NCBI GenBank assembly: GCA_023053545.1
Contig: JAKZAN010000067.1
Coordinates: 140,424 to 204,423 of the forward strand
Length of the DNA stretch: 64,000 nt
Origin: Lepidurus packardi
Lineage: Eukaryota; Arthropoda; Branchiopoda; Notostraca; Triopsidae
Direction of reading: 5' to 3'
The notes under the pieces are model-generated. The model saw nothing but the letters and a program-made list of their open reading frames with translations. It had not been told where the DNA came from and made no database searches. Each line of letters starts with the position of its first letter. The first letter of the stretch is position 1. This document shows positions 23,683 to 52,980 of this stretch, piece by piece. A program made the position numbers and the translations under genes.

Positions 23683-23706
23683 AATTAAATCCGTACGGAT
23701 TTAATT
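23683..23706. repeat. Perfect 24-bp palindrome, copy 2
   Basis: Same 24-bp perfect palindrome as at 21,307, with centre CCGTACGG, in the same monomer context (between a GGTCTG monomer and a normal one). It was carried here by the domain C HOR. Confidence 0.9.
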
Positions 23707-26700
23707 AATTCCTTACGGACTGAATTAAATCCTTACGGTCTGAATTAATTCCGTACGGATTTAATTAATTCCTTACGGACTGAATTAAATCCTTACGGAC
23801 TGAATTAATTCATTATGGACTTAATTAATTCCGTAAGGAATGAATGAGTTAATTACGGACTGAATTAATTCCTTACGGCCTGAATTATTTCCTTACGGAC
23901 TGAATTAATTTCATACGGACTGAAATAATTCATTACAGACTTAATTAATTCCTTACGGACTGAATTAATTCCTTACGGACTTAATTAATTCCTTACGGAC
24001 TTAATTAATTCCTTACGGACTTAATTAATTCCTTACGGACTAAATTAATTCCTTACGGACTGAACTAATTCATTACGGACTGAATTAATTCCTTACGGAC
24101 TGAATTAATTACTTACGGACTAAATTATTTCCTTACGTACTGAAATAATTCCTTATGGACTGAATTAATTCCTTACGGACTGAATTAATTCCTTACGGAC
24201 TGAATTAATTCCTTAATTAATTCCTTACGGACTGAATTAATTTCATACGGACTGAATTAATTACTTACGGACTGAATTATTTCCTTACGTACTGAAGTTA
24301 TTCCTTACGGACTGAATTAATACCTTACGGACTGAATTAAATCCTTACGGACAGAATTAATTCCTTACGGACTGAATTAATACCTTACGGACTGAATTAA
24401 TTCCTTACGGACTGAATTAATTCCTTATGGACTGAATTATTTCCTTACGGACTGAATTAATTCTTTAGGATTGATTGAATTCCTTTCTTATTGAATTAAT
24501 TCCTTACGGACTGAATTAATTCCTTAATTAATTCCTTACGGACTGAATTAATTTCATACGGACGGAATTAATTTATTACGGACTTAATTAATCCATTACG
24601 GACTGAATTAATTCCTTACGTACTGAACTTATTCCTTACGGACTGAATTAATTCCTTACGGACTGAATTAATATCTTACGGACTGAATTAAATCCTTACG
24701 GACAGAACTAATTCCTTACGGACTGAATTAATTCTTTAGGATTGATTGATTTCCATTTTTACTGAATTAATTCCTTACGGACTGAATTAATTCTTTAGGA
24801 TTGATTGAATTCCATTCTTACTGAATTAATTCCTTACGGACTGAATTAATTCCTTACGGACTTAATTAATTCCTTACGGACTTAATTAATTCCTTACGGA
24901 CTTAATTAATTCCTTATGGACTAAATTAATTCCTTACGGACTGAATTAATTCATTACGGACTGAATTAATTCCTTACAGACTGAATTAATTCCTTATGGA
25001 CTTAACTAATTCCGTAAGGAATGAATTAATTAATTACGGACTGAAATAATTCCTTACGGACTGAATTAATTCCTTACGGACTGAATTAATTCCTTAATTA
25101 ATTCCTTACGGACTGAATTAATTTCATACGGACTGAATTAATTCATTTCGGACTTAATTAATCAATTACGGACTGAATTAATTCCTTACGTAATGAACTT
25201 ATTCCTTACGGACTGAATTAATTCCTTACGGACTGAATTAATTCCTTACGGACTGAATTAATTCCTTACGGACTGAACTAATTCCTTACGGACTGAATTA
25301 ATACCTTACGGACTGAATTAAATCCTTACGGACTGAATTAATTCCTTACGGACTGAATTAGTTCCTTACGGACTGAACTAATTCCTTACGGACTGAATTA
25401 ATTCCTTACGGTCTGAATTAATTCCGTACGGATTTTATTAATTCCTTACGGACTGAATTAATTCATTACGGACTTAATTAATCCATTACGGACTGAATTA
25501 TTTCCTTACGAACTGAAGTTATTCCTTACGGACTGAATTAATTACTTACGGACTAAATTATTTCCTTACGTACTGAAATAATTCCTTATGGACTGAATTA
25601 ATTCCTTACGGACTGAATTAATTCCTTACGGACTGAATTAATTTCATACGGACTGAATTAATTACTTACGGACTGAATTATTTCCTTACGTACTGAAGTT
25701 ATTCCTTACGGACTGAATTAATACCTTACGGACTGAATTAAATCCTTACGGACAGAATTAATTCCTTACGAACTGAATTAATTCCTTACGGACTGAATTA
25801 ATTCCTTACGTACTGAATTAATTCCTTACGGACTGAATTAATTCCTTACGGACTGAATTAATTCATTACGGACTTAATTAAATCCTTACAGACTGAATTA
25901 ATTCCTTACGGACTGAATTAATTCCTTACGGACTGAATTAATTCCTTTATTAATTCCTTACGGACTGAATTAATTCCTTACGGACTGAATTAATTCCTTA
26001 CGGACTGAATTAATACCTTACGGACTGAATTAAATCCTTACGGACTGAATTAATTCCTTACGGACTGAATTAGTTCCTTACGTACTGAATTAATTCCTTA
26101 CGGACTGAATTAATTCCTTTCGGACTTAATTAATTCCTTACGTACTTAATTAATTCCTTACGGTCTGAATTAATTCCGTACGGATTTTATTAATTCCTTA
26201 CGGACTGAATTAATTCATTACGGACTTAATTAATCCATTACGGACTGAATTATTACCTTACGAACTGAAGTTATTCCTTACGGACTGAATTAATTACTTA
26301 CGGACTAAATTATTTCCTTACGTACTGAAATTATTCCTTACGGACTGAATTAATTCCTTACGGACTGAATTATTCCTTACGGACTGAATTAATTCCTTAA
26401 TTAATTCCTTACGGACTGAATTAATTCCTTAATTAATTCCTTACGGACTGAATTAATTTCATACGGACTGAATTAATTACTTACGGACTGAATTATTTCC
26501 TTAAGTACTGAAGTTATTCCTTACGGACTGAATTAATACCTTACGGACTGAATTAAATCCTTACGGACAGAATTAATTCCTTACGAACTGAATTAATTCC
26601 TTACGGACTGAATTAATTCCTTAATTAATTCCTTAAGGACTGAATTAATTTCATACGGACTGAATTAATTACTTACGGACTGAATTATTTCCTTAAGTAC

Positions 26701-27333
26701 TGAAGTTATTCCTTACGGACTGAATTAATACCTTACGGACTGAATTAATTCCTTACGGACTGAATTTATTCCTTACGGACTGAATTAATTCATTACGTAC
26801 TTAATTAAATCCTTACAGACTGAATTTATTCCTTATGGACTTAATTAATTCCGTAAGGAATGAATTAATTAATTACGGACTGAAATAATTCCTTACGGAC
26901 TGAATTAATTCCTTACGGACTGAATTAATTCGTTATGGACTTAATTAATTCCTTACGGACTGAATTAGTTCCTTACGGACTGAATTATTTCCATACGGAC
27001 TGAATTAATTCTTTAGGATTGATTGAATTCCGTTCTTACTGAATTAATTCCTTACGGACTGAATTAATTCCTTAATTAATTCCTTACGGACTTAATTAAT
27101 TCCTTACGGAATGAATTAATACCTTACGGACTGAATTAAATCCTTACGGACTAAATAAATTCCTTACGGTCTGAATTAAATCATTACGGACTGAATTAAT
27201 TCCTTACGGACTGAATTAATTCATTACGGACCTAATTAATTCCTTACGGACGGAATTAATCCTTTACGGACTTAATTAATTCCTTACGGACTTAATTAAT
27301 TCCTTACGTACTTAATTAAATCCTTACGGTCTG

Positions 27334-27357
27334 AATTAAATCCGTACGGATTTAATT
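27334..27357. repeat. Perfect 24-bp palindrome, copy 3
   Basis: Third copy of the 24-bp palindrome with centre CCGTACGG in the same HOR context. Elsewhere the equivalent monomer reads AATTCCGTACGGATTT and is symmetric over only about 10 bp (TCCGTACGGA). Confidence 0.9.
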
Positions 27358-29819
27358 AATTCCTTACGGACTGAATTAAATCCTTACGGTCTGAATTAAT
27401 TCCGTACGGATTTAATTAATTCCTTACGGACTGAATTAAATCCTTACGGACTGAATTAATTCATTATGGACTTAATTAATTCCGTAAGGAATGAATGAGT
27501 TAATTACGTACTGAATTATTTCCTTACGGCCTGAATTATTTCCTTACGGACTGAATTAATTTCATACGGACTGAAATAATTCATTACAGACTTAATTAAT
27601 CCATTACGGACTGAATTAATTCCTTACGTACTGAACTTATTCCTTACGGACTGAATTAATTCCTTACGGACTGAATTAATTCCTTACGGACTTAATTAAT
27701 TCCTTACGGACTTAATTAATTCCTTACGGACTTAATTAATTCCTTACGGACTAAATTAATTCCTTACGGACTGAACTAATTCATTACGGACTGAATTAAT
27801 TCCTTACGGACTGAATTAATTCCTTACGGACCTAATTAATTCCTTACGGACGTAATTAATTCCTTACGGATTGAATTAAATCCTTACGGACTGAATTAAT
27901 TCCGTACGGATTATATTAATTCCTTACGGACTGAATTAATTCTTTACGGATTATATTAATTCCTTACGGACTGAATTAATTCTTTACGGACTGAATTAAT
28001 TCCTTACGGACTGAATTAAATCCTTACGGACTGAATTAATTCCGTACGGATTACATTAATTCCTTACGGACTGAATTAATTCTTTACGGACTGAATTAAT
28101 TCATTATGGACTTAATTAATTCCGTAAGGAATAAATGAATTAATTACGGACTGAAATAATTCCTTACGGACTGAATTAATTCCTTACGGACTAAATTAAT
28201 TCGTTACGGACTGAATTAATTCCTTACGGACTGAATTAATTCCTTACGGACTGAATTATTTCCTTGCGGACTGAATTAATTCTTTAGGATTGATTGAATT
28301 CCGTTCTTACTGAATTAATTCCTTACGGACTGAATTAATTCCTTAATTAATTCCTTACGGACTGAATTAATTCCTTACGGACTTAATTAATTCCTTACGG
28401 ACTGAATTAATTCCTTACAAACTGAATTAATTCCTTACGGACTGAATTATTTCCTTACGGACTGAATTAATTCTTTAGGATTGATTGAATTCCTTTCTTA
28501 CTGAATTAATTCCTTACGGACTGAATTAATTCCTTACGGACTGAATTAATACCTTACGGACTGAATTAATTCCTTACGGACTGAATTAATTCCTTATGGA
28601 CTGAATTATTTCCTTACGGACTGAATTAATTCTTTAGGATTGATTGAATTCCTTTCTTATTGAATTAATTCCTTACGGACTGAGTTAATTTCATACGGAC
28701 TGAATTAATTTATTACGGACTGAACTTATTCCTTACGGACTGAATTAATTCCTTACGGACTGAATTAATACCTTACGGACTGAATTAAATCCTTACGGAC
28801 AGAACTAATTCCTTACGGACTGAATTAATTCCTTACGGACTTAATTAATTCCTTACGGACTGAATTTTTTCCTTACGGACTGAATTAATTCTTAAGGATT
28901 GATTGATTTCCATTTTTACTGAATTAATTCCTTACGGACTGAATTAATTCTTTAGGATTGATTGAATTCCATTCTTACTGAATTAATTCCTTACGGACTG
29001 AATTAATTCCTTACGGACTTAATTAATTCCTTACGGACTTAATTAATTCCTTACGGACTTAATTAATTCCTTATGGACTAAATTAATTCCTTACGGACTG
29101 AATTAATTCATTACGGACTGAATTAATTCCTTACAGACTGAATTAATTCCTTATGGGCTTAACTAATTCCGTAAGGAATGAATTATTTAATTACGGACTG
29201 AAATAATTCCTTACGGACTGAATTAATTCCTTACGGACTGAATTAATTCCTTACGGACTGAATTAATTCCTTAATTAATTCCTTACGGACTGAATTAATT
29301 TCATACGGACTGAATTAATTCATTTCGGACTTAATTAATCAATTACGGACTGAATTAATTCCTTACGTAATGAACTTATTCCTTACGGACTGAATTAATT
29401 CCTTACGGACTGAATTAATTCCTTACGGACTGAACTAATTCCTTACGGACTGAATTAATACCTTACGGACTGAATTAAATCCTTACGGACTGAATTAATT
29501 CCTTACGGACTGAATTAGTTCCTTACTGACTGAACTAATTCCTTACGGACTGAATAAATTCCTTTCGGATTTAATTAATTCCTTACGTACTTAATTAATT
29601 CCTTACGGTCTGAATTAATTCCGAACGGATTTTATTAATTCCTTACGGACTGAATTAATTCATTACGGACTTAATTAATCCATTACGGACTGAATTATTT
29701 CCTTACGAACTGAAGTTATTCCTTACGGACTGAATTAGTTACTTACGGACTAAATTATTTCCTTACGTACTGAAATAATTCCTTATGGACTGAATTAATT
29801 CCTTACGGACTGAACTAAT

Positions 29820-32800
29820 TCCTTACGGACTGAATTAATTCCTTAATTAATTCCTTACGGACTGAATTAATTTCATACGGACTGAATTAATTACTTACGG
29901 ACTGAATTATTTCCTTACGTACTGAAGTTATTCCTTACGGACTGAATTAATACCTTACGGACTGAATTAAATCCTTACGGACAGAATTAATTCCGTACGA
30001 ACTGAATTAATTCCTTACGGACTGAATTAATTCCTTACGTACTGAATTAATTTCTTACGGACTGAATTAATTCCTTACGGACTGAATTAATTCATTACGG
30101 ACTTAATTAAATCCTTACAGACTGAATTAATTCCTTACGGACTGAATTAATTCCTTACGGACTGAATTAATTCCTTAATTAATTCCTTACGGACTGAATT
30201 AATTCCTTACGGACTGAATTAATTCCTTACGGACTGAATTAATACCTTACGGACTGAATTAAATCCTTACGGACTGAATTAATTCCTTACGGACTGAATT
30301 AGTTCCTTACGGACTGAATTAATTCCTTACGGACTGAATTAATTCCTTTCGGACTAAATTAATTCCTTACGTACTTAATTAATTCCTTACGGTCTGAATT
30401 AATTCCGTACGGATTTTATTAATTCCTTACGGACTGAATTAATTCATTACGGACTTAATTAATCCATTACGGACTGAATTATTACCTTACGAACTGAAGT
30501 TATTCCTTACGGACTGAATTAATTACTTACGGACTAAATTATTTCCTTACGTACTGAAATTATTCCTTACGGACTGAATTAATTCCTTACGGACTGAATT
30601 AATTCCTTAATTAATTCCTTACGGACGGAATAAATTCCTTAATTAATTCCTTAAGGACTGAATTAATTTCATACGGACTGAATTAATTACTTACGGACTG
30701 AATTATTTCCTTAAGTACTGAAGTTATTCCTTACGGACTGAATTAATACCTTACGGACTGAATTAAATCCTTACGGACAGAATTAATTCCTTACGAACTG
30801 AATTAATTCCTTACGTACTTAATTAAATCCTTACAGACTGAATTTATTCCTTATGGACTTAATTAATTCCGTAAGGAATGAATTAATTAATTACGGACTG
30901 AATTAATTCCTTACGGACTGAATTAATTCGTTATGGACTTAATTAATTCCTTACGGACTGAATTAATTCCTTACGGACTGAATTAATTCCTTACGGACTG
31001 AATTAATTCATTACGGACTTAATTAAATCCTTACAGACTGAATTAATTCCTTACGGACTGAATTAATTCCTTACGGACTGAATTAATTCCTTAATTAATT
31101 CCTTACGGACTGAATTAATTCCTTACGGACTGAATTAATTCCTTACGGACTGAATTAATTCCTTACGGACTGAATTAATACCTTACGGACTGAATTAAAT
31201 CCTTACGGACTGAATTAATTCCTTACGGACTGAATTAGTTCCTTACGTACTGAATTAATTCCTTACGGACTGAATTAATTCCTTTCGGACTTAATTAATT
31301 CCTTACGTACTTAATTAATTCCTTACGGTCTGAATTAATTCCGTACGGATTTTATTAATTCCTTACGGACTGAATTAATTCATTACGGACTTAATTAATC
31401 CATTACGGACTGAATTATTACCTTACGAACTGAAGTTATTCCTTACGGACTGAATTAATTACTTACGGACTAAATTATTTCCTTACGTACTGAAATTATT
31501 CCTTACGGACTGAATTAATTCCTTACGGACTGAATTAATTCCTTACGGACTGAATTAATTCCTTAATTAATTCCTTACGGACTGAATTAATTTCATACGG
31601 ACTGAATTAATTCCTTACGGACTGAATTAATTCCTTACGGACTGAATTAATTCCTTAATTAATTCCTTAAGGACTGAATTAATTCCTTACGGACTGAATT
31701 AATTCCTTAATTAATTCCTTAAGGACTGAATTAATTTCATACGGACTGAATTAATTACTTACGGACTGAATTATTTCCTTAAGTATTCAAGTTATTCCTT
31801 ACGGACTGAATTAATACCTTACGGACTGAATTAAATCCTTACGGACAGAATTAATTCCTTACGAACTGAATTAATTCCTTACGGACTGAATTAATTCCTT
31901 ACGTACTGAATTAATTCCTTACGGACTGAATTTATTCCTTACGGACTGAATTAATTCATTACGTACTTAATTAAATCCTTACAGACTGAATTTATTCCTT
32001 ATGGACTTAATTAATTCCGTAAGGAATGAATTAATTAATTACGGACTGAAATAATTCCTTACGGACTGAATTAATTCCTTACGGACTGAATTAATTCGTT
32101 ATGGACTTAATTAATTCCTTACGGACTGAATTAGTTCCTTACGGACTGAATTATTTCCTTACGGACTGAATTAATTCTTTAGGATTGATTGAATTCCGTT
32201 CTTACTGAATTAATTCCTTACGGACTGAATTAATTCCTTAATTAATTCCTTACGGACTTAATTAATTCCTTACGGAATGAATTAATACCTTACGGACTGA
32301 ATTAAATCCTTACGGACTAAATTAATTCCTTACGGTCTGAATTAAATCATTACGGACTGAATTAATTCCTTACGGACTGAATTAATTCATTACGGACCTA
32401 ATTAATTCCTTACGGACGGAATTAATCCTTTACGGATTTAATTAATTCCTTACGGACTGAATTAAATCCTTTCGGACTTAATTAATTCATTACGGACTTT
32501 ATTAATTCATTACGGACTTAATTAATTCATCACGGACTTAATTAATTCATTACGGACTTAATTAATTCATCACGGACTTAATTAATTCATTACGGACTTA
32601 ATTAAATCCTTACGGACTGAATTAATTCATTATGGACTTAATTAATTCCGTATAGAATGAATGAGTTAATTACGGACTGAATTAATTCCTTACGGCCTGA
32701 ATTATTTCTTTACGGACTGAATTAATTTCATACGGACTGAATTAATTCATTACAGACTTAATTAATCCATTACGGACTGAATTAATTCCTTACGTACTGA

Positions 32801-35800
32801 ACTTATTCCTTACGGACTGAATTAATTCCTTACGGACTGAATTAATTCCTTACGGACTTAATTAATTCCTTACGGACTTAATTAATTCCTTACGGACTTA
32901 ATTAATTCCTTACGGACTGAATTAATTCATTACGGACTGAATTAATTCCTTACGGACTGAATTAATTCCTTACGGACCTAATTAATTCCTTACGGACGGA
33001 ATTAATTCCTTACGGAGGGAATTAATCCCTTACGTACTTAATTAATTCCTTACGGTCTGAATTAATTCCGTGCGGATTTAATTAATTCCTTACGGACTGA
33101 ATTAAATCCTTACGGACTGAATTAATTCATTATGGACTTAATTAATTCCGTAAGAAATGAATGAATTAATTACGGACTGAAATAATTCCTTACGGACTGA
33201 ATTAATTCCTTACGGACTGAATTAATTCGTTACGGACTGAATTAATTTCATACGGACTGAATTAATTCATTACTGACTTAATTAATCCATTACGGACCTA
33301 ATTAATTCCTTACGTACTGAACTTATTCCTTACGGACTTAATTAATTCCTTACGGACTGAATTAATACCTTACGGACTGAATGAAATCCTTACGGACTAA
33401 ATTAATTCCTTACGGACTGAATTAATTCATTACGGACCTAATTCATTCCTTACTGACGGAATTAATTCCTTACGTACTTAATTAATTCCTTACGGTCTGA
33501 ATTAATTCCGTACGGATTTAATTAATTCCTTACGGACTGAATTAAATCCTTACGGACTGAATTAATTCATTATGGACTTAATTAATTCCGTAAGGAATGA
33601 AATAATTCCTTACGGACTGAAATAATTCCTTACGGACTGAATTAATTCCTTATGGACTGAATTAATTCCTTACGGACTGAACTAATTCCTTACGGACTGA
33701 ATTAATTCCTTAATTAATTCCTTACGGACTGAATTAATTTCATACGGACTGAATTAATTACTTACGGACTGAATTATTTCCTTACGTACTGAAGTTATTC
33801 CTTACGGACTGAATTAATACCTTACGGACTGAATTAAATCCTTACGGACAGAATTAATTCCGTACGAACTGAATTAATTCCTTACGGACTGAATTAATTC
33901 CTTACGTACTGAATTAATTTCTTACGGACTGAATTAATTCCTTACGGACTGAATTAATTCATTACGGACTTAATTAAATCCTTACAGACTGAATTAATTC
34001 CTTACGGACTGAATTAATTCCTTACGGACTGAATTAATTCCTTAATTAATTCCTTACGGACTGAATTAATTCCTTACGGACTGAATTAATTCCTTACGGA
34101 CTGAATTAATACCTTACGGACTGAATTAAATCCTTACGGACTGAATTAATTCCTTACGGACTGAATTAGTTCCTTACGGACTGAATTAATTCCTTACGGA
34201 CTGAATTAATTCCTTTCGGACTAAATTAATTCCTTACGTACTTAATTAATTCCTTACGGTCTGAATTAATTCCGTACGGATTTTATTAATTCCTTACGGA
34301 CTGAATTAATTCATTACGGACTTAATTAATCCATTACGGACTGAATTATTACCTTACGAACTGAAGTTATTCCTTACGGACTGAATTAATTACTTACGGA
34401 CTAAATTATTTCCTTACGTACTGAAATTATTCCTTACGGACTGAATTAATTCCTTACGGACTGAATTAATTCCTTAATTAATTCCTTACGGACGGAATAA
34501 ATTCCTTAATTAATTCCTTAAGGACTGAATTAATTTCATACGGACTGAATTAATTACTTACGGACTGAATTATTTCCTTAAGTACTGAAGTTATTCCTTA
34601 CGGACTGAATTAATACCTTACGGACTGAATTAAATCCTTACGGACAGAATTAATTCCTTACGAACTGAATTAATTCCTTACGTACTTAATTAAATCCTTA
34701 CAGACTGAATTTATTCCTTATGGACTTAATTAATTCCGTAAGGAATGAATTAATTAATTACGGACTGAATTAATTCCTTACGGACTGAATTAATTCGTTA
34801 TGGACTTAATTAATTCCTTACGGACTGAATTAATTCCTTACGGACTGAATTAATTCCTTACGGACTGAATTAATTCATTACGGACTTAATTAAATCCTTA
34901 CAGACTGAATTAATTCCTTACGGACTGAATTAATTCCTTACGGACTGAATTAATTCCTTAATTAATTCCTTACGGACTGAATTAATTCCTTACGGACTGA
35001 ATTAATTCCTTACGGACTGAATTAATTCCTTACGGACTGAATTAATACCTTACGGACTGAATTAAATCCTTACGGACTGAATTAATTCCTTACGGACTGA
35101 ATTAGTTCCTTACGTACTGAATTAATTCCTTACGGACTGAATTAATTCCTTTCGGACTTAATTAATTCCTTACGTACTTAATTAATTCCTTACGGTCTGA
35201 ATTAATTCCATACGGATTTTATTAATTCCTTACGGACTGAATTAATTCATTACGGACTTAATTAATCCATTACGGACTGAATTATTACCTTACGAACTGA
35301 AGTTATTCCTTACGGACTGAATTAATTACTTACGGACTAAATTATTTCCTTACGTACTGAAATTATTCCTTACGGACTGAATTAATTCCTTACGGACTGA
35401 ATTAATTCCTTACGGACTGAATTAATTCCTTAATTAATTCCTTACGGACTGAATTAATTTCATACGGACTGAATTAATTCCTTACGGACTGAATTAATTC
35501 CTTACGGACTGAATTAATTCCTTAATTAATTCCTTAAGGACTGAATTAATTTCATACGGACTGAATTAATTACTTACGGACTGAATTATTTCCTTAAGTA
35601 TTCAAGTTATTCCTTACGGACTGAATTAATACCTTACGGACTGAATTAAATCCTTACGGACAGAATTAATTCCTTACGGACTGAATTACTTCCTTACGGA
35701 CTGAATTAATTCGTTATGGACTTAATTAATTCCTTACGGACTGAATTAGTTCCTTACGGACTGAATTATTTCCTTACGGACTGAATTAATTCTTTAGGAT

Positions 35801-37400
35801 TGATTGAATTCCGTTCTTACTGAATTAATTCCTTACGGACTGAATTAATTCCTTAATTAATTCCTTACGGACTTAATTAATTCCTTACGGAATGAATTAA
35901 TACCTTACGGACTGAATTAAATCCTTACGGACTAAATTAATTCCTTACGGTCTGAATTAAATCATTACGGACTGAATTAATTCCTTACGGACTGAATTAA
36001 TTCATTACGGACCTAATTAATTCCTTACGGACGGAATTAATACTTTACGGATTTAATTAATTCCTTACGGACTGAATTAAATCCTTTCGGACTTAATTAA
36101 TTCATTACGGATTTTATTAATTCATTACGGACTTAATTAATTCATCACGGACTTAATTAATTCATTACGGACTTAATTAATTCATCACGGACTTAATTAA
36201 TTCATTACGGACTTAATTAAATCCTTACGGACTGAATTAATTCATTATGGACTTAATTAATTCCGTATAGAATGAATGAGTTAATTACGGACTGAATTAA
36301 TTCCTTACGGCCTGAATTATTTCTTTACGGACTGAATTAATTTCATACGGACTGAATTAATTCATTACAGACTTAATTAATCCATTACGGACTGAATTAA
36401 TTCCTTACGTACTGAACTTATTCCTTACGGACTGAATTAATTCCTTACGGACTGAATTAATTCCTTACGGACTTAATTAATTCCTTACGGACTTAATTAA
36501 TTCCTTACGGACTTAATTAATTCCTTACGGACTGAATTAATTCATTACGGACTGAATTAATTCCTTACGGACTGAATTAATTCCTTACGGACCTAATTAA
36601 TTCCTTACGGACGGAATTAATTCCTTACGGAGGGAATTAATCCCTTACGTACTTAATTAATTCCTTACGGTCTGAATTAATTCCGTGCGGATTTAATTAA
36701 TTCCTTACGGACTGAATTAAATCCTTACGGACTGAATTAATTCATTATGGACTTAATTAATTCCGTAAGAAATGAATGAATTAATTACGGACTGAAATAA
36801 TTCCTTACGGACTGAATTAATTCCTTACGGACTGAATTAATTCGTTACGGACTGAATTAATTTCATACGGACTGAATTAATTCATTACTGACTTAATTAA
36901 TCCATTACGGACCTAATTAATTCCTTACGTACTGAACTTATTCCTTACGGACTTAATTAATTCCTTACGGACTGAATTAATACCTTACGGACTGAATGAA
37001 ATCCTTACGGACTAAATTAATTCCTTACGGACTGAATTAATTCATTACGGACCTAATTCATTCCTTACTGACGGAATTAATTCCTTACGTACTTAATTAA
37101 TTCCTTACGGTCTGAATTAATTCCGTACGGATTTAATTAATTCCTTACGGACTGAATTAAATCCTTACGGACTGAATTAATTCATTATGGACTTAATTAA
37201 TTCCGTAAGGAATGAATGAATTAATTACGGACTGAAATAATTCCTTACGGACTGAATTAATTCCTTACGGACTGAATTAATTCGTTACGGACTGAATTAA
37301 TTTCATACGGACTGAATTAATTCATTACTGACTTAATTAATCCATTACGGACTTAATTAATTCCTTACGTACTGAACTTATTCCTTACGGACTTAATTAA
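29820..37400 (+). repeat. Imperfect tandem duplication with about 3.87-kb offset
   Basis: Sequence from about 29,820 recurs from about 33,690 at an offset of 3,867 bp. For example, the unusual ACGGACGGAA junction is at 30,621 and 34,488, and CCTTAATTAATTCC at 29,841 and 33,708. After about 31,650 the offset falls to 3,615 bp (dimers at 32,174 and 35,789) because the second copy lacks 52 bp and then 200 bp present in the first. The 52 bp equal 20 + 20 + 12, so they include one truncated monomer. Repeats of CATCACGGACTT near 32,527 and 36,142 belong to both copies. Confidence 0.75.
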
Positions 37401-37832
37401 TTCCTTACGGACTGAATTAATACCTTACGGACTGAATGAAATCCTTACGGACTAAATTAATTCCTTACGGACTGAATTAATTCATTACGGACCTAATTCA
37501 TTCCTTACTGACGGAATTAATTCCTTACGTACTTAATTAATTCCTTACGGTCTGAATTAATTCCGTACGGATTTAATTAATTCCTTACGGACTGAATTAA
37601 ATCCTTACGGACTGAATTAATTCATTATGGACTTAATTAATTCCGTAAGGAATGAATGAGTTAATTACGGACTGAAATAATTCCTTACAGACTGAATTAA
37701 TTCCTTACGGACTGAATTAATTCCTTACGGACTGAATTATTTCCTTACGGACTGAATTATTTCCTTACGGACTGAATAAATTTCATACGGACTGAATTAA
37801 TTCATTACGGACTTAATTAATCCATTACGGAC
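36191..37832 (+). repeat. Segment repeated at 40,101-41,742 (offset 3,910 bp)
   Basis: Reversed-core monomers spaced 500, 440 and 440 bp match those at 40,171-41,551. The upstream match begins near 36,191/40,101. Downstream the copies agree until 37,832/41,742, after which this copy enters the core-less tract while the other continues with normal monomers. The first copy therefore ends exactly at the unusual tract. I noticed scattered single-base differences, such as TTATATAA near 41,244, but did not compare base by base. Confidence 0.75.
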
Positions 37833-37947
37833 ATTAATCCATTAATTCCATTAATTTCATTAATAATTTCATTAATAATTTCATTAATTTTCATTAATAA
37901 TTTCATTAATTTCATTAATTCCATTAATACATTAATCCATTAATTCC
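37833..37947. repeat. 115-bp core-less linker tract interrupting the array
   Basis: The tract is twelve modules, each starting with ATTAAT: ATTAATCC, ATTAATTCC, ATTAATTTC, ATTAATAATTTC (twice), ATTAATTTTC, ATTAATAATTTC, ATTAATTTC, ATTAATTCC, ATTAATAC, ATTAATCC and ATTAATTCC. Module lengths are 8, 9, 9, 12, 12, 10, 12, 9, 9, 8, 8, 9, so long modules sit in the middle and short ones at both ends. Most modules match linker variants of the array (ATTAATTCC, ATTAATCC, ATTAATTTC, ATTAATAC), but the following TTACGGACTGA core is absent throughout. It contains no G at all on the + strand. It is the only such tract in the window and lies at a junction between two array segments. Confidence 0.92.
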
Positions 37948-40112
37948 TTACGGACTGAATTAATTCGTTATGGACTTAATTAATTCCTTACGGACTGAAT
38001 TAATTCCTTACGGACTGAATTAATTCCTTACGGACTGAATTAATTCATTACGGACTTAATTAAATCCTTACCGACTGAATTAATTCCTTACGGACTGAAT
38101 TAATTCCTTACGGACTGAATTAATTCCTTAATTAATTCCTTACGGACTGAATTAATTCCTTACGGACTGAATTAATTCCTTACGGACTGAATTAATTCCT
38201 TACGGACTGAATTAATACCTTACGGACTGAATTAAATCCTTACGGACTGAATTAATTCCTTACGGACTGAATTAGTTCCTTACGTACTGAATTAATTCCT
38301 TACGGACTGAATTAATTCCTTTCGGACTTAATTAATTCCTTACGTACTTAATTAATTCCTTACGGTCTGAATTAATTCCGTACGGATTTTATTAATTCCT
38401 TACGGACTGAATTAATTCATTACGGACTTAATTAATCCATTACGGACTGAATTATTACCTTACGAACTGAAGTTATTCCTTACGGACTGAATTAATTACT
38501 TACGGACTAAATTATTTCCTTACGTACTGAAATTATTCCTTACGGACTGAATTAATTCCTTACGGACTGAATTAATTCCTTACGGACTGAATTAATTCCT
38601 TAATTAATTCCTTACGGACTGAATTAATTTCATACGGACTGAATTAATTCCTTACGGACTGAATTAATTCCTTACGGACTGAATTAATTCCTTAATTAAT
38701 TCCTTAAGGACTGAATTAATTTCATACGGACTGAATTAATTCCTTACGGACTGAATTAATACCTTACGGACTGAATTAAATCCTTACGGACAGAATTAAT
38801 TCCTTACGAACTGAATTAATTCCTTACGGACTGAATTAATTCCTTACGGACTGAATTAATTCGTTATGGACTTAATTAATTCCTTACGGACTGAATTAGT
38901 TCCTTACGGACTGAATTATTTCCTTACGGACTGAATTAATTCTTTAGGATTGATTGAATTCCGTTCTTACTGAATTAATTCCTTACGGACTGAATTAATT
39001 CCTTAATTAATTCCTTACGGACTTAATTAATTCCTTACGGAATGAATTAATACCTTACGGACTGAATTAAATCCTTACGGACTAAATTAATTCCTTACGG
39101 TCTGAATTAAATCATTACGGACTGAATTAATTCCTTACGGACTGAATTAATTCATTACGGACCTAATTAATTCCTTACGGACGGAATTAATCCTTTACGG
39201 ATTTAATTAATTCCTTACGGACTGAATTAAATCCTTTCGGACTTAATTAATTCATTACGGACTTTATTAATTCATTACGGACTTAATTAATTCATCACGG
39301 ACTTAATTAATTCATTACGGACTTAATTAATTCCTTACGGACTGAATTAATTCCTTACGGACTGAATTAAATCCTTACGGACTGAATTAATTCATTATGG
39401 ACTTAATTAATTCCGTAAGGAATGAATGAGTTAATTACGGACTGAATTAATTCCTTACGGCCTGAATTATTTCTTTACGGACTGAATTAATTTCATACGG
39501 ACTGAATTAATTCATTACAGACTTAATTAATCCATTACGGACTGAATTAATTCCTTACGTACTGAACTTATTCCTTACGGACTGAATTAATTCCTTACGG
39601 ACTGAATTAATTCCTTACGGACTTAATTAATTCCTTACGGACTTAATTAATTCCTTACGGACTTAATTAATTCCTTACGGAATAAATTAATTCCTTACGG
39701 ACTGAATTAATTCATTACGGACTGAATTAATTCCTTACGGACTGAATTAATTCCTTACGGACCTAATTAATTCCTTACGGACGGAATTAATTCCTTACGG
39801 AGGGAATTAATCCCTTACGTACTTAATTAATTCCTTACGGTCTGAATTAATTCCGTACGGATTTAATTAATTCCTTACGGACTGAATTAAATCCTTACGG
39901 ACTGAATTAATTCATTATGGACTTAATTAATTCCGTAAGGAATGAATGAATTAATTACGGACTGAAATAATTCCTTACGGACTGAATTAATTCCTTACGG
40001 ACTGAATTAATTCCTTACGGACTGAATTAATTCGTTACGGACTGAATTAATTTCATACGGACTGAATTAATTCATTACTGACTTAATTAATCCATTACGG
40101 ACTTAATTAATT
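37948..40112 (+). repeat. Segment repeated at 42,095-44,259 (offset 4,147 bp)
   Basis: Starting directly after the core-less tract, the sequence matches that from about 42,095: TTCGTTATGG, the shared CTTACCGACTG monomer, the 12-bp truncated monomers, the CCG dimer (38939 and 43086) and CATCACGG (39292 and 43439). The match ends near 40,112/44,259. At 42,09x the same sequence is joined on its left to an ordinary CCGTACGG monomer, with no core-less tract. The start also matches about 34,778 onward at an offset of 3,170 bp. Confidence 0.75.
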
Positions 40113-42681
40113 CATTACGGACTTAATTAAATCCTTACGGACTGAATTAATTCATTATGGACTTAATTAATTCCGTATAGAATGAATGAGTTAATTACGG
40201 ACTGAATTAATTCCTTACGGCCTGAATTATTTCTTTACGGACTGAATTAATTTCATACGGACTGAATTAATTCATTACAGACTTAATTAATCCATTACGG
40301 ACTGAATTAATTCCTTACGTACTGAACTTATTCCTTACGGACTGAATTAATTCCTTACGGACTGAATTAATTCCTTACGGACTTAATTAATTCCTTACGG
40401 ACTTAATTAATTCCTTACGGACTTAATTAATTCCTTACGGACTGAATTAATTCATTACGGACTGAATTAATTCCTTACGGACTGAATTAATTCCTTACGG
40501 ACCTAATTAATTCCTTACGGACGGAATTAATTCCTTACGGAGGGAATTAATCCCTTACGTACTTAATTAATTCCTTACGGTCTGAATTAATTCCGTGCGG
40601 ATTTAATTAATTCCTTACGGACTGAATTAAATCCTTACGGACTGAATTAATTCATTATGGACTTAATTAATTCCGTAAGAAATGAATGAATTAATTACGG
40701 ACTGAAATAATTCCTTACGGACTGAATTAATTCCTTACGGACTGAATTAATTCGTTACGGACTGAATTAATTTCATACGGACTGAATTAATTCATTACTG
40801 ACTTAATTAATCCATTACGGACCTAATTAATTCCTTACGTACTGAACTTATTCCTTACGGACTTAATTAATTCCTTACGGACTGAATTAATACCTTACGG
40901 ACTGAATGAAATCCTTACGGACTAAATTAATTCCTTACGGACTGAATTAATTCATTACGGACCTAATTCATTCCTTACTGACGGAATTAATTCCTTACGT
41001 ACTTAATTAATTCCTTACGGTCTGAATTAATTCCGTACGGATTTAATTAATTCCTTACGGACTGAATTAAATCCTTACGGACTGAATTAATTCATTATGG
41101 ACTTAATTAATTCCGTAAGGAATGAATGAATTAATTACGGACTGAAATAATTCCTTACGGACTGAATTAATTCCTTACGGACTGAATTAATTCGTTACGG
41201 ACTGAATTAATTTCATACGGACTGAATTAATTCATTACTGACTTATATAATCCATTACGGACTTAATTAATTCCTTACGTACTGAACTTATTCCTTACGG
41301 ACTTAATTAATTCCTTACGGACTGAATTAATACCTTACGGACTGAATGAAATCCTTACGGACTAAATTAATTCCTTACGGACTGAATTAATTCATTACGG
41401 ACCTAATTCATTCCTTACTGACGGAATTAATTCCTTACGTACTTAATTAATTCCTTACGGTCTGAATTAATTCCGTACGGATTTAATTAATTCCTTACGG
41501 ACTGAATTAAATCCTTACGGACTGAATTAATTCATTATGGACTTAATTAATTCCGTAAGGAATGAATGAGTTAATTACGGACTGAAATAATTCCTTACAG
41601 ACTGAATTAATTCCTTACGGACTGAATTAATTCCTTACGGACTGAATTATTTCCTTACGGACTGAATTATTTCCTTACGGACTGAATAAATTTCATACGG
41701 ACTGAATTAATTCATTACGGACTTAATTAATCCATTACGGACTGAATTAATCCATTACGGACTGAATTAATTCCTTACGTACTGAACTTATTCCTTACGG
41801 ACTGAATTAATTCCTTACGGACTGAATTAATTCCTTACGGACTTAATTAATTCCTTAGGGACTTAATTAATTCCTTACGGACTTAATTAATTCCTTACGG
41901 ACTAAATTAATTCCTTACGGACTGAATTAATTCATTACGGACTGAATTAATTCCTTACGGACTGAATTAATTCCTTACGGACCTAATTAATTCCTTACGG
42001 ACGGAATTAATTCCTTACGGAGGGAATTAATCCCTTACGTACTTAATTAATTCCTTACGGTCTGAATTAATTCCGTACGGACTGAATTAATTCCTTACGG
42101 ACTGAATTAATTCGTTATGGACTTAATTAATTCCTTACGGACTGAATTAATTCCTTACGGACTGAATTAATTCCTTACGGACTGAATTAATTCATTACGG
42201 ACTTAATTAAATCCTTACCGACTGAATTAATTCCTTACGGACTGAATTAATTCCTTACGGACTGAATTAATTCCTTAATTAATTCCTTACGGACTGAATT
42301 AATTCCTTACGGACTGAATTAATTCCTTACGGACTGAATTAATTCCTTACGGACTGAATTAATACCTTACGGACTGAATTAAATCCTTACGGACTGAATT
42401 AATTCCTTACGGACTGAATTAGTTCCTTACGTACTGAATTAATTCCTTACGGACTGAATTAATTCCTTTCGGACTTAATTAATTCCTTACGTACTTAATT
42501 AATTCCTTACGGTCTGAATTAATTCCGTACGGATTTTATTAATTCCTTACGGACTGAATTAATTCATTACGGACTTAATTAATCCATTACGGACTGAATT
42601 ATTACCTTACGAACTGAAGTTATTCCTTACGGACTGAATTAATTACTTACGGACTAAATTATTTCCTTACGTACTGAAATT

Positions 42682-45600
42682 ATTCCTTACGGACTGAATT
42701 AATTCCTTACGGACTGAATTAATTCCTTACGGACTGAATTAATTCCTTAATTAATTCCTTACGGACTGAATTAATTTCATACGGACTGAATTAATTCCTT
42801 ACGGACTGAATTAATTCCTTACGGACTGAATTAATTCCTTAATTAATTCCTTAAGGACTGAATTAATTTCATACGGACTGAATTAATTCCTTACGGACTG
42901 AATTAATACCTTACGGACTGAATTAAATCCTTACGGACAGAATTAATTCCTTACGAACTGAATTAATTCCTTACGGACTGAATTAATTCCTTACGGACTG
43001 AATTAATTCGTTATGGACTTAATTAATTCCTTACGGACTGAATTAGTTCCTTACGGACTGAATTATTTCCTTACGGACTGAATTAATTCTTTAGGATTGA
43101 TTGAATTCCGTTCTTACTGAATTAATTCCTTACGGACTGAATTAATTCCTTAATTAATTCCTTACGGACTTAATTAATTCCTTACGGAATGAATTAATAC
43201 CTTACGGACTGAATTAAATCCTTACGGACTAAATTAATTCCTTACGGTCTGAATTAAATCATTACGGACTGAATTAATTCCTTACGGACTGAATTAATTC
43301 ATTACGGACCTAATTAATTCCTTACGGACGGAATTAATCCTTTACGGATTTAATTAATTCCTTACGGACTGAATTAAATCCTTTCGGACTTAATTAATTC
43401 ATTACGGACTTTATTAATTCATTACGGACTTAATTAATTCATCACGGACTTAATTAATTCATTACGGACTTAATTAATTCCTTACGGACTGAATTAATTC
43501 CTTACGGACTGAATTAAATCCTTACGGACTGAATTAATTCATTATGGACTTAATTAATTCCGTAAGGAATGAATGAGTTAATTACGGACTGAATTAATTC
43601 CTTACGGCCTGAATTATTTCTTTACGGACTGAATTAATTTCATACGGACTGAATTAATTCATTACAGACTTAATTAATCCATTACGGACTGAATTAATTC
43701 CTTACGTACTGAACTTATTCCTTACGGACTGAATTAATTCCTTACGGACTGAATTAATTCCTTACGGACTTAATTAATTCCTTACGGACTTAATTAATTC
43801 CTTACGGACTTAATTAATTCCTTACGGAATAAATTAATTCCTTACGGACTGAATTAATTCATTACGGACTGAATTAATTCCTTACGGACTGAATTAATTC
43901 CTTACGGACCTAATTAATTCCTTACGGACGGAATTAATTCCTTACGGAGGGAATTAATCCCTTACGTACTTAATTAATTCCTTACGGTCTGAATTAATTC
44001 CGTACGGATTTAATTAATTCCTTACGGACTGAATTAAATCCTTACGGACTGAATTAATTCATTATGGACTTAATTAATTCCGTAAGGAATGAATGAATTA
44101 ATTACGGACTGAAATAATTCCTTACGGACTGAATTAATTCCTTACGGACTGAATTAATTCCTTACGGACTGAATTAATTCGTTACGGACTGAATTAATTT
44201 CATACGGACTGAATTAATTCATTACTGACTTAATTAATCCATTACGGACTTAATTAATTCCTTACGTACTGAACTTATTCCTTACGGACTTAATTAATTC
44301 CTTACGGACTGAATTAATACCTTACGGACTGAATGAAATCCTTACGGACTAAATTAATTCCTTACGGACTGAATTAATTCATTACGGACCTAATTCATTC
44401 CTTACTGACGGAATTAATTCCTTACGTACTTAATTAATTCCTTACGGTCTGAATTAATTCCGTACGGATTTAATTAATTCCTTACGGACTGAATTAAATC
44501 CTTTCGGACTTAATTAATTCATTACGGACTTTATTAATTCATTACGGACTTAATTAATTCATCACGGACTTAATTAATTCATTACGGACTTAATTAATTC
44601 CTTACGGACTGAATTAATTCCTTACGGACTGAATTAAATCCTTACGGACTGAATTAATTCATTATGGACTTAATTAATTCCGTAAGGAATGAATGAGTTA
44701 ATTACGGACTGAATTAATTCCTTACGGCCTGAATTATTTCTTTACGGACTGAATTAATTTCATACGGACTGAATTAATTCATTACAGACTTAATTAATCC
44801 ATTACGGACTGAATTAATTCCTTACGTACTGAACTTATTCCTTACGGACTGAATTAATTCCTTACGGACTGAATTAATTCCTTACGGACTTAATTAATTC
44901 CTTACGGACTTAATTAATTCCTTACGGACTTAATTAATTCCTTACGGACTAAATTAATTCCTTACGGACTGAATTAATTCATTACGGACTGAATTATTTC
45001 CTTACGGACTGAATTAATTCCTTACGGACCTAATTAATTCCTTACGGACGGAATTAATTCCTTACGGAGGGAATTAATCCCTTACGTACTTAATTAATTC
45101 CTTACGGTCTGAATTAATTCCGTACGGATTTAATTAATTCCTTACGGACTGAATTAAATCCTTACGGACTGAATTAATTCATTATGGACTTAATTAATTC
45201 CGTAAGGAATGAATGAATTAATTACGGACTGAAATAATTCCTTACGGACTGAATTAATTCCTTACGGACTGAATTAATTCGTTACGGACTGAATTAATTT
45301 CATACGGACTGAATTAATTCATTACTGACTTAATTAATCCATTACGGACTTAATTAATTCCTTACGTACTGAACTTATTCCTTACGGACTTAATTAATTC
45401 CTTACGGACTGAATTAATACCTTACGGACTGAATGAAATCCTTACGGACTAAATTAATTCCTTACGGACTGAATTAATTCATTACGGACCTAATTCATTC
45501 CTTACTGACGGAATTAATTCCTTACGTACTTAATTAATTCCTTACGGTCTGAATTAATTCCGTACGGATTTAATTAATTCCTTACGGACTGAATTAAATC

Positions 45601-48600
45601 CTTACGGACTGAATTAATTCATTATGGACTTAATTAATTCCGTAAGGAATGAATGAGTTAATTACGGACTGAAATAATTCCTTACAGACTGAATTAATTC
45701 CTTACGGACTGAATTAATTCCTTACGGACTGAATTAATTCCTTACGGACTGAATTAATTCCTTAATTAATTCCTTACGGACTGAATTAATTTCATACGGA
45801 CTGAATTAATTCCTTACGGACTGAATTAATTCCTTACGGACTGAATTAATTCCTTAATTAATTCCTTAAGGACTGAATTAATTTCATACGGACTGAATTA
45901 ATTCCTTACGGACTGAATTAATACCTTACGGACTGAATTAAATCCTTACGGACAGAATTAATTCCTTACGAACTGAATTAATTCCTTACGGACTGAATTA
46001 ATTCCTTACGGACTGAATTAATTCGTTATGGACTTAATTAATTCCTTACGGACTGAATTAGTTCCTTACGGACTGAATTATTTCCTTACGGACTGAATTA
46101 ATTCTTTAGGATTGATTGAATTCCGTTCTTACTGAATTAATTCCTTACGGACTGAATTAATTCCTTAATTAATTCCTTACGGACTTAATTAATTCCTTAC
46201 GGAATGAATTAATACCTTACGGACTGAATTAAATCCTTACGGACTAAATTAATTCCTTACGGTCTGAATTAAATCATTACGGACTGAATTAATTCCTTAC
46301 GGACTGAATTAATTCATTACGGACCTAATTAATTCCTTACGGACGGAATTAATCCTTTACGGATTTAATTAATTCCTTACGGACTGAATTAAATCCTTTC
46401 GGACTTAATTAATTCATTACGGACTTTATTAATTCATTACGGACTTAATTAATTCATCACGGACTTAATTAATTCATTACGGACTTAATTAATTCCTTAC
46501 GGACTGAATTAATTCCTTACGGACTGAATTAAATCCTTACGGACTGAATTAATTCATTATGGACTTAATTAATTCCGTAAGGAATGAATGAGTTAATTAC
46601 GGACTGAATTAATTCCTTACGGCCTGAATTATTTCTTTACGGACTGAATTAATTTCATACGGACTGAATTAATTCATTACAGACTTAATTAATCCATTAC
46701 GGACTGAATTAATTCCTTACGTACTGAACTTATTCCTTACGGACTGAATTAATTCCTTACGGACTGAATTAATTCCTTACGGACTTAATTAATTCCTTAC
46801 GGACTTAATTAATTCCTTACGGACTTAATTAATTCCTTACGGAATAAATTAATTCCTTACGGACTGAATTAATTCATTACGGACTGAATTAATTCCTTAC
46901 GGACTGAATTAATTCCTTACGGACCTAATTAATTCCTTACGGACGGAATTAATTCCTTACGGAGGGAATTAATCCCTTACGTACTTAATTAATTCCTTAC
47001 GGTCTGAATTAATTCCGTACGGATTTAATTAATTCCTTACGGACTGAATTAAATCCTTACGGACTGAATTAATTCATTATGGACTTAATTAATTCCGTAA
47101 GGAATGAATGAATTAATTACGGACTGAAATAATTCCTTACGGACTGAATTAATTCCTTACGGACTGAATTAATTCCTTACGGACTGAATTAATTCGTTAC
47201 GGACTGAATTAATTTCATACGGACTGAATTAATTCATTACTGACTTAATTAATCCATTACGGACTTAATTAATTCCTTACGTACTGAACTTATTCCTTAC
47301 GGACTTAATTAATTCCTTACGGACTGAATTAATACCTTACGGACTGAATGAAATCCTTACGGACTAAATTAATTCCTTACGGACTGAATTAATTCATTAC
47401 GGACCTAATTCATTCCTTACTGACGGAATTAATTCCTTACGTACTTAATTAATTCCTTACGGTCTGAATTAATTCCGTACGGATTTAATTAATTCCTTAC
47501 GGACTGAATTAAATCCTTTCGGACTTAATTAATTCATTACGGACTTTATTAATTCATTACGGACTTAATTAATTCATCACGGACTTAATTAATTCATTAC
47601 GGACTTAATTAATTCCTTACGGACTGAATTAATTCCTTACGGACTGAATTAAATCCTTACGGACTGAATTAATTCATTATGGACTTAATTAATTCCGTAA
47701 GGAATGAATGAGTTAATTACGGACTGAATTAATTCCTTACGGCCTGAATTATTTCTTTACGGACTGAATTAATTTCATACGGACTGAATTAATTCATTAC
47801 AGACTTAATTAATCCATTACGGACTGAATTAATTCCTTACGTACTGAACTTATTCCTTACGGACTGAATTAATTCCTTACGGACTGAATTAATTCCTTAC
47901 GGACTTAATTAATTCCTTACGGACTTAATTAATTCCTTACGGACTTAATTAATTCCTTACGGACTAAATTAATTCCTTACGGACTGAATTAATTCATTAC
48001 GGACTGAATTATTTCCTTACGGACTGAATTAATTCCTTACGGACCTAATTAATTCCTTACGGACGGAATTAATTCCTTACGGAGGGAATTAATCCCTTAC
48101 GTACTTAATTAATTCCTTACGGTCTGAATTAATTCCGTACGGATTTAATTAATTCCTTACGGACTGAATTAAATCCTTACGGACTGAATTAATTCATTAT
48201 GGACTTAATTAATTCCGTAAGGAATGAATGAATTAATTACGGACTGAAATAATTCCTTACGGACTGAATTAATTCCTTACGGACTGAATTAATTCGTTAC
48301 GGACTGAATTAATTTCATACGGACTGAATTAATTCATTACTGACTTAATTAATCCATTACGGACTTAATTAATTCCTTACGTACTGAACTTATTCCTTAC
48401 GGACTTAATTAATTCCTTACGGACTGAATTAATACCTTACGGACTGAATGAAATCCTTACGGACTAAATTAATTCCTTACGGACTGAATTAATTCATTAC
48501 GGACCTAATTCATTCCTTACTGACGGAATTAATTCCTTACGTACTTAATTAATTCCTTACGGTCTGAATTAATTCCGTACGGATTTAATTAATTCCTTAC

Positions 48601-48751
48601 GGACTGAATTAAATCCTTACGGACTGAATTAATTCATTATGGACTTAATTAATTCCGTAAGGAATGAAGGAGTTAATTACGGACTGAAATAATTCCTTAC
48701 AGACTGAATTAATTCCTTACGGACTGAATTAATTCCTTACGGACTGAATTA
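42682..48751 (+). repeat. Tandem duplication with 3,015-bp period
   Basis: Positions 42,682-45,736 align to 45,697-48,751 without a length change. The dimers at 43086/46101 and the CATCACGG monomers at 43439/46454 and 44559/47574 all give 3,015 bp. The only base difference I noticed is T at 45,654 against G at 48,669 (GAATGAG to GAAGGAG). The copies diverge on the left at 42,681/45,696 and on the right at 45,737/48,752. Near-identity over 3 kb indicates a recent duplication. Each copy also contains an internal 1,120-bp near-repeat. Confidence 0.85.
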
Positions 48752-50740
48752 TTTCCTTACGGACTGAATTATTTCCTTACGGACTGAATAAATTTCATAC
48801 GGACTGAATTAATTCATTACGGACTTAATTAATCCATTACGGACTGAATTAATCCATTACGGACTGAATTAATTCCTTACGTACTGAACTTATTCCTTAC
48901 GGACTGAATTAATTCCTTACGGACTGAATTAATTCCTTACGGACTTAATTAATTCCTTACGGACTTAATTAATTCCTTACGGACTTAATTAATTCCTTAC
49001 GGACTAAATTAATTCCTTACGGACTGAATTAATTCATTACGGACTGAATTAATTCCTTACGGACTGAATTAATTCCTTACGGACCTAATTAATTCCTTAC
49101 GGACGGAATTAATTCCTTACGGAGGGAATTAATCCCTTACGTACTTAATTAATTCCTTACGGTCTGAATTAATTCCGTACGGATTTAATTAATTCCTTAC
49201 GGACTGAATTAAATCCTTACGGACTGAATTAATTCATTATGGACTTAATTAATTCCGTAAGGAATGAATGAATTAATTACGGACTGAAATAATTCCTTAC
49301 GGACTGAATTAATTCCTTACGGACTGAATTAATTCGTTACGGACTGAATTAATTTCATACGGACTGAATTAATTCATTACTGACTTAATTAATCCATTAC
49401 GGACTTAATTAATTCCTTACGTACTGAACTTATTCCTTACGGACTTAATTAATTCCTTACGGACTGAATTAATACCTTACGGACTGAATGAAATCCTTAC
49501 GGACTAAATTAATTCCTTACGGACTGAATTAATTCATTACGGACCTAATTCATTCCTTACTGACGGAATTAATTCCTTACGTACTTAATTAATTCCTTAC
49601 GGTCTGAATTAATTCCGTACGGATTTAATTAATTCCTTACGGACTGAATTAAATCCTTACGGACTGAATTAATTCATTATGGACTTAATTAATTCCGTAA
49701 GGAATGAAGGAGTTAATTACGGACTGAAATAATTCCTTACAGACTGAATTAATTCCTTACGGACTGAATTAATTCCTTACGGACTGAATTATTTCCTTAC
49801 GGACTGAATTATTTCCTTACGGACTGAATAAATTTCATACGGACTGAATTAATTCATTACGGACTTAATTAATCCATTACGGACTGAATTAATCCATTAC
49901 GGACTGAATTAATTCCTTACGTACTGAACTTATTCCTTACGGACTGAATTAATTCCTTACGGACTGAATTAATTCCTTACGGACTTAATTAATTCCTTAC
50001 GGACTTAATTAATTCCTTACGGACTTAATTAATTCCTTACGGACTAAATTAATTCCTTACGGACTGAATTAATTCATTACGGACTGAATTAATTCCTTAC
50101 GGACTGAATTAATTCCTTACGGACCTAATTAATTCCTTACGGACGGAATTAATTCCTTACGGAGGGAATTAATCCCTTACGTACTTAATTAATTCCTTAC
50201 GGTCTGAATTAATTCCGTACGGATTTAATTAATTCCTTACGGACTGAATTAAATCCTTACGGACTGAATTAATTCATTATGGACTTAATTAATTCCGTAA
50301 GGAATGAATGAATTAATTACGGACTGAAATAATTCCTTACGGACTGAATTAATTCCTTACGGACTGAATTAATTCGTTACGGACTGAATTAATTTCATAC
50401 GGACTGAATTAATTCATTACTGACTTAATTAATCCATTACGGACCTAATTAATTCCTTACGTACTGAACTTATTCCTTACGGACTTAATTAATTCCTTAC
50501 GGACTGAATTAATACCTTACGGACTGAATGAAATCCTTACGGACTAAATTAATTCCTTACGGACTGAATTAATTCATTACGGACCTAATTCATTCCTTAC
50601 TGACGGAATTAATTCCTTACGTACTTAATTAATTCCTTACGGTCTGAATTAATTCCGTACGGATTTAATTAATTCCTTACGGACTGAATTAAATCCTTAC
50701 GGACTGAATTAATTCATTATGGACTTAATTAATTCCGTAA
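48661..50740 (+). repeat. Tandem copies of a 1,040-bp HOR (600 + 440 bp)
   Basis: Copies at 48,661-49,700 and 49,701-50,740 share the private GAAGGAG variant (G at 48,669 and 49,709) that is GAATGAG elsewhere. They also share two successive AATCCATTACGG monomers near 48,841 and 49,881. One difference I noticed is GGACTTAATT at 49,401 against GGACCTAATT at 50,441. The next copy diverges at 50,747 (GATTG instead of GAATG or GAAGG). Confidence 0.85.
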
Positions 50741-52080: not shown

Positions 52081-52680
52081 GGAATGAATGAGTTAATTAC
52101 GGACTGAAATAATTCCTTACAGACTGAATTAATTCCTTACGGACTGAATTAATTCCTTACGGACTGAATTATTTCCTTACGGACTGAATTATTTCCTTAC
52201 GGACTGAATAAATTTCATACGGACTGAATTAATTCATTACGGACTTAATTAATCCATTACGGACTGAATTAATCCATTACGGACTGAATTAATTCCTTAC
52301 GTACTGAACTTATTCCTTACGGACTGAATTAATTCCTTACGGACTGAATTAATTCCTTACGGACTTAATTAATTCCTTACGGACTTAATTAATTCCTTAC
52401 GGACTTAATTAATTCCTTACGGACTGAATTAATTCCTTACGGACTGAATGAATTCATTACGGACTGAATTAATTCCTTACGGACTGAATTAATTCCTTAC
52501 GGACCTAATTAATTCCTTACGGACGGAATTAATTCCTTACGGAGGGAATTAATCCCTTACGTACTTAATTAATTCCTTACGGTCTGAATTAATTCCGTAC
52601 GGATTTAATTAATTCCTTACGGACTGAATTAAATCCTTACGGACTGAATTAATTCATTATGGACTTAATTAATTCCGTAA

Positions 52681-52980
52681 GGAATGAATGAATTAATTAC
52701 GTACTGAACTTATTCCTTACGGACTTAATTAATTCCTTACGGACTGAATTAATACCTTACGGACTGAATGAAATCCTTACGGACTAAATTAATTCCTTAC
52801 GGACTGAATTAATTCATTACGGACCTAATTCATTCCTTACTGACGGAATTAATTCCTTACGTACTTAATTAATTCCTTACGGTCTGAATTAATTCCGTAC
52901 GGATTTAATTAATTCCTTACGGACTGAATTAAATCCTTACGGACTGAATTAATTCATTATGGACTTAATTAATTCCGTAA
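52681..52980 (+). repeat. HOR copy with an exact seven-monomer deletion
   Basis: After the reversed-core monomer the sequence passes from AATTAATTAC straight to GTACTGAACTTATTCC at about 52,700. In the 440-bp copies seven monomers lie between these points (including TTCGTTACGG, TTTCATACGG, CATTACTGAC and TCCATTACGG). The HOR is therefore 300 bp rather than 440 bp, and the register is kept. Confidence 0.8.

Follow-up and report, generated by a model that had tools for sequence, protein, structure and literature searches.

A core-less tract in a 20-bp satellite array of Lepidurus packardi, a possible deletion-with-filler scar

How can a satellite array come to hold a stretch in which linker-like units follow one another with every core gone? 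The birth of new satellite repeats is mostly inferred from old arrays, and the locus described here, in Lepidurus packardi, bears on how such a step might look while it is still young. It lies in the last 64,000 bases (the window) of the 204,423-bp contig C56, in an assembly of 108.6 Mb and 344 contigs; positions refer to the window unless a contig is named. The tract is a real and odd feature of this assembly, a single case known from the assembly alone. We put the chance that it is a deletion-with-filler scar within the satellite array, produced in one event, at roughly one in two.

The tract and the array around it

A reading made from the sequence only had reported twelve ATTAAT-headed modules in place of the 20-bp monomers at 37833-37947. 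Their positions and lengths (8-12 bp) are correct, with ATTAAT starting at 37833, 37841, 37850, 37859, 37871, 37883, 37893, 37905, 37914, 37923, 37931 and 37939. As also reported, the + strand has no G over these 115 bp (T55 A43 C17 G0); in full, the G-free run extends over 121 bp (37831-37951), and the runner-up in C56 measures 38 bp. That the cores are missing was confirmed as well: the tract is the fifth-longest stretch of C56 in which no core is matched even when 3 mismatches are allowed, and the four longer ones are at non-satellite insertions near C56:47.4-52.1 kb. The extent needs one amendment. Eleven modules, 106 bp in all, make up the tract proper, while the twelfth does not belong to it, since identity with the tandem copy described below, from 42086 onward, already starts at 37939 (Table 1).

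In order, the eleven modules consist of ATTAAT followed by CC, TCC, TTC, AATTTC, AATTTC, TTTC, AATTTC, TTC, TCC, AC and CC. The claim that most modules match linker variants used by the array holds for eight of the twelve (the CC, TCC, TTC and AC types) and fails for four, namely ATTAATAATTTC (three modules) and ATTAATTTTC (one), which are found nowhere else in C56. Spacing sets the tract apart too: ATTAAT motifs 5-11 bp from each other occur eight times inside it and never elsewhere in C56, and the longest run of spacings of 13 bp or less is the tract's own, with 11, followed by a run of 2 at one place. All twelve modules start as CATTAAT, a motif present 20 times in the window, 12 of these in the tract. 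It can be read as the linker end CATTA fused with the linker start ATTAAT through their shared ATTA, the core being skipped.

Outside the insertions mentioned above, the rest of C56 is the same 20-bp satellite, judging by core matches, and a 36-base piece of the array has 2,129 forward and 1,580 reverse matches in the assembly. Some of the matches listed are near the ends of the large contigs C1, C2, C3 and C4, and from these positions the array may be subtelomeric. Core-less units of 12 bp also occur singly, as a regular variant, throughout C56, window included; there are 204, of which 189 are ATTAATTCCTTA. The window also holds an exact duplication of 2,972 bp (42682-45653 and 45697-48668, offset 3,015), and many more exact blocks of at least 250 bp are present in the array, which indicates that large exchanges turn it over. 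The insertions, outside the window at C56:47,385-47,893 and 50,319-52,138, have their right-hand part in common and may be copies of one mobile element within the satellite; the second includes a 1,693-bp stretch with 48% G+C. At the other end, C284:42534-51499 reversed is identical to C56:195458-204423 over 8,966 bases and C284 extends past the end of C56, so the two contigs overlap and were left unjoined in the assembly. Within the window we found no open reading frames of at least 150 aa, no Rfam families at gathering score and no tRNA genes, and a 16-base piece of the monomer gave no match in the satellite DNA array literature.

Table 1. Features of the window that bear on the core-less tract.
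Feature	Position	Strand	Basis
20-bp satellite array (consensus ATTCCTTACGGACTGAATTA)	1..64000	+	fills the window
Tandem duplication (recent), copy 1 with the tract, 3,910 bp	36187..40096	+	flank comparison with copy 2
Last three left-flank monomers, candidate local template	37776..37832	+	mixed evidence
Core-less tract (filler), 11 modules	37833..37938	+	modules read; edges from the tandem copy
Twelfth module ATTAATTCC, already right flank (segment B)	37939..37947	+	matches the right flank's copy
Copy 2, 4,147 bp, normal monomers at the tract's place	40097..44243	+	comparison with copy 1
Normal array missing from copy 1, 343 bp (about 17 monomers)	41743..42085	+	copy comparison
In-register seam where segments A and B of the array meet, copy 2	42076..42081	.	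A-type matches end, B-type matches begin

Two states of one locus in a tandem duplication

The sequence-only reading had placed the tract on a rearrangement junction, with a left-flank offset of 3,910 and a right-flank offset of 4,147. Both offsets are correct, and they reflect two tandem copies that differ at the tract: the 106 bp in copy 1 stand against 343 bp of normal monomers in copy 2. Around this difference the copies are nearly perfect, with 2 mismatches in 1,646 bp to the left and none in 2,158 bp to the right (3,802 of 3,804 bases agree). The two mismatches lie side by side and are confined to copy 2; each of eight further places checked has the state of copy 1. Perfect matches to the 600 bp just left of the tract also occur at four further places, two each in C56 and C284; for the 600 bp just right of it the only perfect match is copy 2.

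The same comparison reveals a seam in copy 2. Its bases 41700-42081 match the A-type copies at offsets +7102, +8142 and +10522 with 1, 1 and 3 mismatches respectively, and all three diverge from 42082, while the copies at -7317 and -11184, which we call B-type, match copy 2 from 42076 onward. In copy-2 terms the right edge of the tract falls at 42086, or up to 42095 given that the twelfth module is generic, and the A|B seam is thus about 5-19 bp from it. The junction claim therefore holds in both respects: the copies differ at the tract, and the seam adjoins the tract's right edge.

Which state came first? Past the break point, eight of nine offsets compared with copy 2 run on as normal array, and the ninth, 4087, is out of register. 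Because segment A and its normal continuation are repeated in several places, the normal state is probably the older one and the tract derived. In copy 2, bases 42082-42085 read CTGA, which is the B type and lies upstream of the start of B in copy 1; this suggests that the seam preceded the tract, although CTGA is also the common monomer form. The agreement of the copies in all but two of the bases around the tract means that the replacement is recent. The duplication is itself recent, and the tract, if derived, would be younger still. At a rate of 2/3,804, about 0.06 later substitutions are expected in 106 bases, yet the eleven modules are of six types, and for this reason the six types were probably made together with the tract.

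Module order, folding and the source of the filler

The order of the modules had been described as close to mirror-symmetric in length. For lengths this did not stand up, since 8,726 of 50,000 permutations were as symmetric, which is not significant. Module identities do better: they are palindromic in order to 9/11, a degree reached in 350 of 50,000 permutations (998 of 50,000 with the twelfth module included). Likeness between neighbouring modules is borderline (2,678 of 50,000). Both the symmetry and the neighbour tests were picked after the data were seen, and we regard the mirror order as a mild, post-hoc effect. A growing end moving to and fro across neighbouring linkers would yield such a mirror-like order. 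As a single strand, the tract folds better than its dinucleotide shuffles (z -3.56, 0 of 200). A hairpin or foldback origin was rejected nonetheless: 558 of 2,000 permutations of module order fold equally well or better, so that the palindromic ATTAAT accounts for the folding, and a foldback copy would hold G, of which the tract has none.

A local source for the filler was looked for in the flanks. The left flank ends in two linkers of the CATTA type, with a third following in copy 2; our search expression matched 6,320 monomers, and about 16% of them have a linker of this type. The first 12 bases of the tract equal 37816-37827, but they equal the continuation in copy 2 just as well. Split into 7-mers, the 60 bp next to the tract on its left account for 96 of its 106 bases, a coverage equalled by 0.5% of C56 segments; split into 8-mers they account for 70 (1.2% of segments). 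Coverage falls to only 12 bases with 9-mers, equalled by 80% of segments, and stays at 12 with 10-mers, equalled by 11%. The best segments elsewhere in C56 cover up to 102 (7-mers) and 89 (8-mers) bases. No enrichment is seen for the right flank, and coverage by the reverse strand is low for either flank. By a jump-copy score, computed over 10,196 segments, the 100 bp left of the tract are among the top 14%, with a score of 41 against a maximum of 51 and higher-scoring segments elsewhere; the 100 bp to its right rank at 84%, and the deleted stretch, taken by its first 100 bp, ranks at 37%. Local templating is thus a lead and not a result. We also considered whether the tract might be the deleted 343 bp read in a collapsed form, and rejected this: only the first two modules keep the order of the deleted linkers, and the whole 343 bp cover 87 of the 106 tract bases with 7-mers and 34 with 8-mers.

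The full examination for core-less runs covered C56 and those 8,966 bases of C284 that are identical to its end. Searching the rest of the genome for further tandem tracts had been proposed alongside the idea that the tract seeds a new satellite. We ran two pattern searches over the 108.6-Mb assembly and neither found a second tract, which speaks against a satellite that has already spread. Three closely spaced CATTAAT motifs occur together at 55 places of the genome. The tract accounts for 10 of these; among the other 45, 44 contain CATTAATTCATTAAT, and the one such place inspected is a different 20-bp satellite. The central 23-mer of the tract, at up to 3 mismatches, is matched at 9 places, of which the tract holds 3, and its reversed control at 4. 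A looser pattern of three closely spaced ATTAAT motifs carried no information: it has 834 places on each strand, and the reversed control has 2,257. No ectopic donor for the tract was found in the assembly searches.

Repair scar or something else

The reading that we prefer would run as follows. Copy 1 would have suffered a break or a stalled fork, healed in one event during which a 3' end annealed time and again at the ATTA/ATTAAT repeats on either side of each linker. Each round would add a few bases and end in release ahead of the core, leaving a C-ATTAAT joint, until the growing end was finally joined to the right side. The machinery is likely polymerase-theta-mediated end joining, or replication template switching of a like kind. 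Two facts sit awkwardly with this reading. Among the 14-mers that touch the tract, 117 of 119 are absent from the remainder of C56, and the near-coincidence of the A|B seam with the right edge is not accounted for by it. A filler of 106 bp is also long for an end-joining insert. Templated repair synthesis and slippage on AT linkers, both proposed from the sequence, are still the best candidates, with weak and mixed evidence for templating from the immediate neighbourhood.

The genome has a gene of the Pol theta type, assessed by its polymerase part. A-family polymerase exons are found at C3:8443195-8444475, and two of them were tested against PDB chains: one matched 7 chains, all of them Pol theta, and the other matched 63, the best 7 of which are Pol theta. 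Models of A-family DNA polymerase or COX1 also match long stop-free open frames on C43, C52, C129 and C214, perhaps bacterial contigs within the assembly, and many COX1 pieces with internal TGA codons, on C1, C2, C4, C5, C6, C21 and C38, are probably nuclear copies of mitochondrial DNA.

Known scars offer partial parallels. Work on C. elegans describes, in translesion-polymerase mutants, a Pol theta-type class of deletions of 50-500 bp (PMC7202663), and the 343 bp missing here, measured against the tandem copy, lie within that range. The C. elegans end-joining deletions with templated insertions resemble our case in having a junction insert, microhomology-rich ends and a Pol theta-type gene (PMC7202663). 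Unlike those scars, the insert here is 106 bp of short repeated modules; it also sits in a satellite, where microhomology is everywhere, and an origin of 5 bp or more of it within 40 bp of the breakpoints, as in such scars, is a candidate only (PMC7202663). Drosophila CNV breakpoints carry insertions with no clear match in the genome, for which the authors tested an origin in neighbouring repeats (PMC4056370). Our tract is likewise a breakpoint insert lacking a clear genomic match, but differs from that filler DNA in being itself a short tandem repeat of linker-like units (PMC4056370). Serial replication slippage, FoSTeS and MMBIR, as summarised in PMC4056370 and PMC8421209, involve repeated release and re-annealing at microhomology, which would yield such a product; they differ from our case in that no long template stretch was found here, as the 14-mers indicate.

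Among the alternatives, a local read, library or assembly fault, by which a poor read or a polymerase artefact in amplified DNA replaced 343 bp of normal array, deserves the most attention, though we think it unlikely. In its favour, the tract was found only once in the assembly searches, and nanopore basecalling can convert a repeat into another of different unit length (PMC9414165), a likeness to what is seen here. Those errors, however, are frequent at the same kind of repeat (PMC9414165), whereas the tract is single; a systematic miscall should recur, and copy 2 and the near-identical copies at +7102 and +8142 read normally. The same study saw no such errors in HiFi reads (PMC9414165), which would tell against a fault here if the assembly were built from reads of that type. 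The consensus, moreover, looks accurate: C284 equals C56 in 8,966 of 8,966 bases, though the reads may be shared, and the tandem copies agree almost throughout. The assembly or consensus fault suggested from the sequence is hence disfavoured in its systematic form, and what is left of it is a sporadic fault at one place. Less probable still is stepwise growth, in which a monomer lost its core and slippage then multiplied an 8-12-bp unit over time. Core loss does happen, as the 204 solitary units attest, the module types are separated by small steps, and neighbours are alike at the border of significance. Yet all those units are 12 bp long and none has the CATTAAT joint, growth alone does not achieve the removal of 343 bp, and, if the tract is younger than the duplication, flanks differing at 2 of 3,804 bases leave little time for six module types to arise.

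Two further explanations seem to us distinctly improbable, to a similar degree. The tract could have been captured from a short satellite at another locus that has diverged or is missing from the assembly; four of twelve modules do lack an exact counterpart in C56, and another satellite of this genome holds CATTAATTCATTAAT runs, but the counts given above for the central 23-mer and its reversed control tell against it. Alternatively, the tract could be the older state, left by the first joining of A and B, with copy 2 later restored by homologous repair that trimmed it away. This would account for the near-coincidence of the right edge (42086) and the seam, which the deletion-with-filler reading leaves aside. 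Against it stand the B-type CTGA of copy 2, not decisive in so common a form, and the three nearest A copies, which differ from copy 2 at 42082 and 42084.

Under the deletion-with-filler reading, the locus has its before and after states side by side in a young duplication. Going further, one burst of repair or replication may have built a new 8-12-bp repeat array from the linkers of an old satellite, seen here before later changes set in, a potential satellite birth whose date would be bounded by the near-perfect duplication; we advance this broader claim with low confidence. If reads do not confirm the tract, it would be an example of a bad stretch of satellite assembly that resembles biology. 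If they do, a short new tandem repeat may be within what error-prone joining can produce in a single step.
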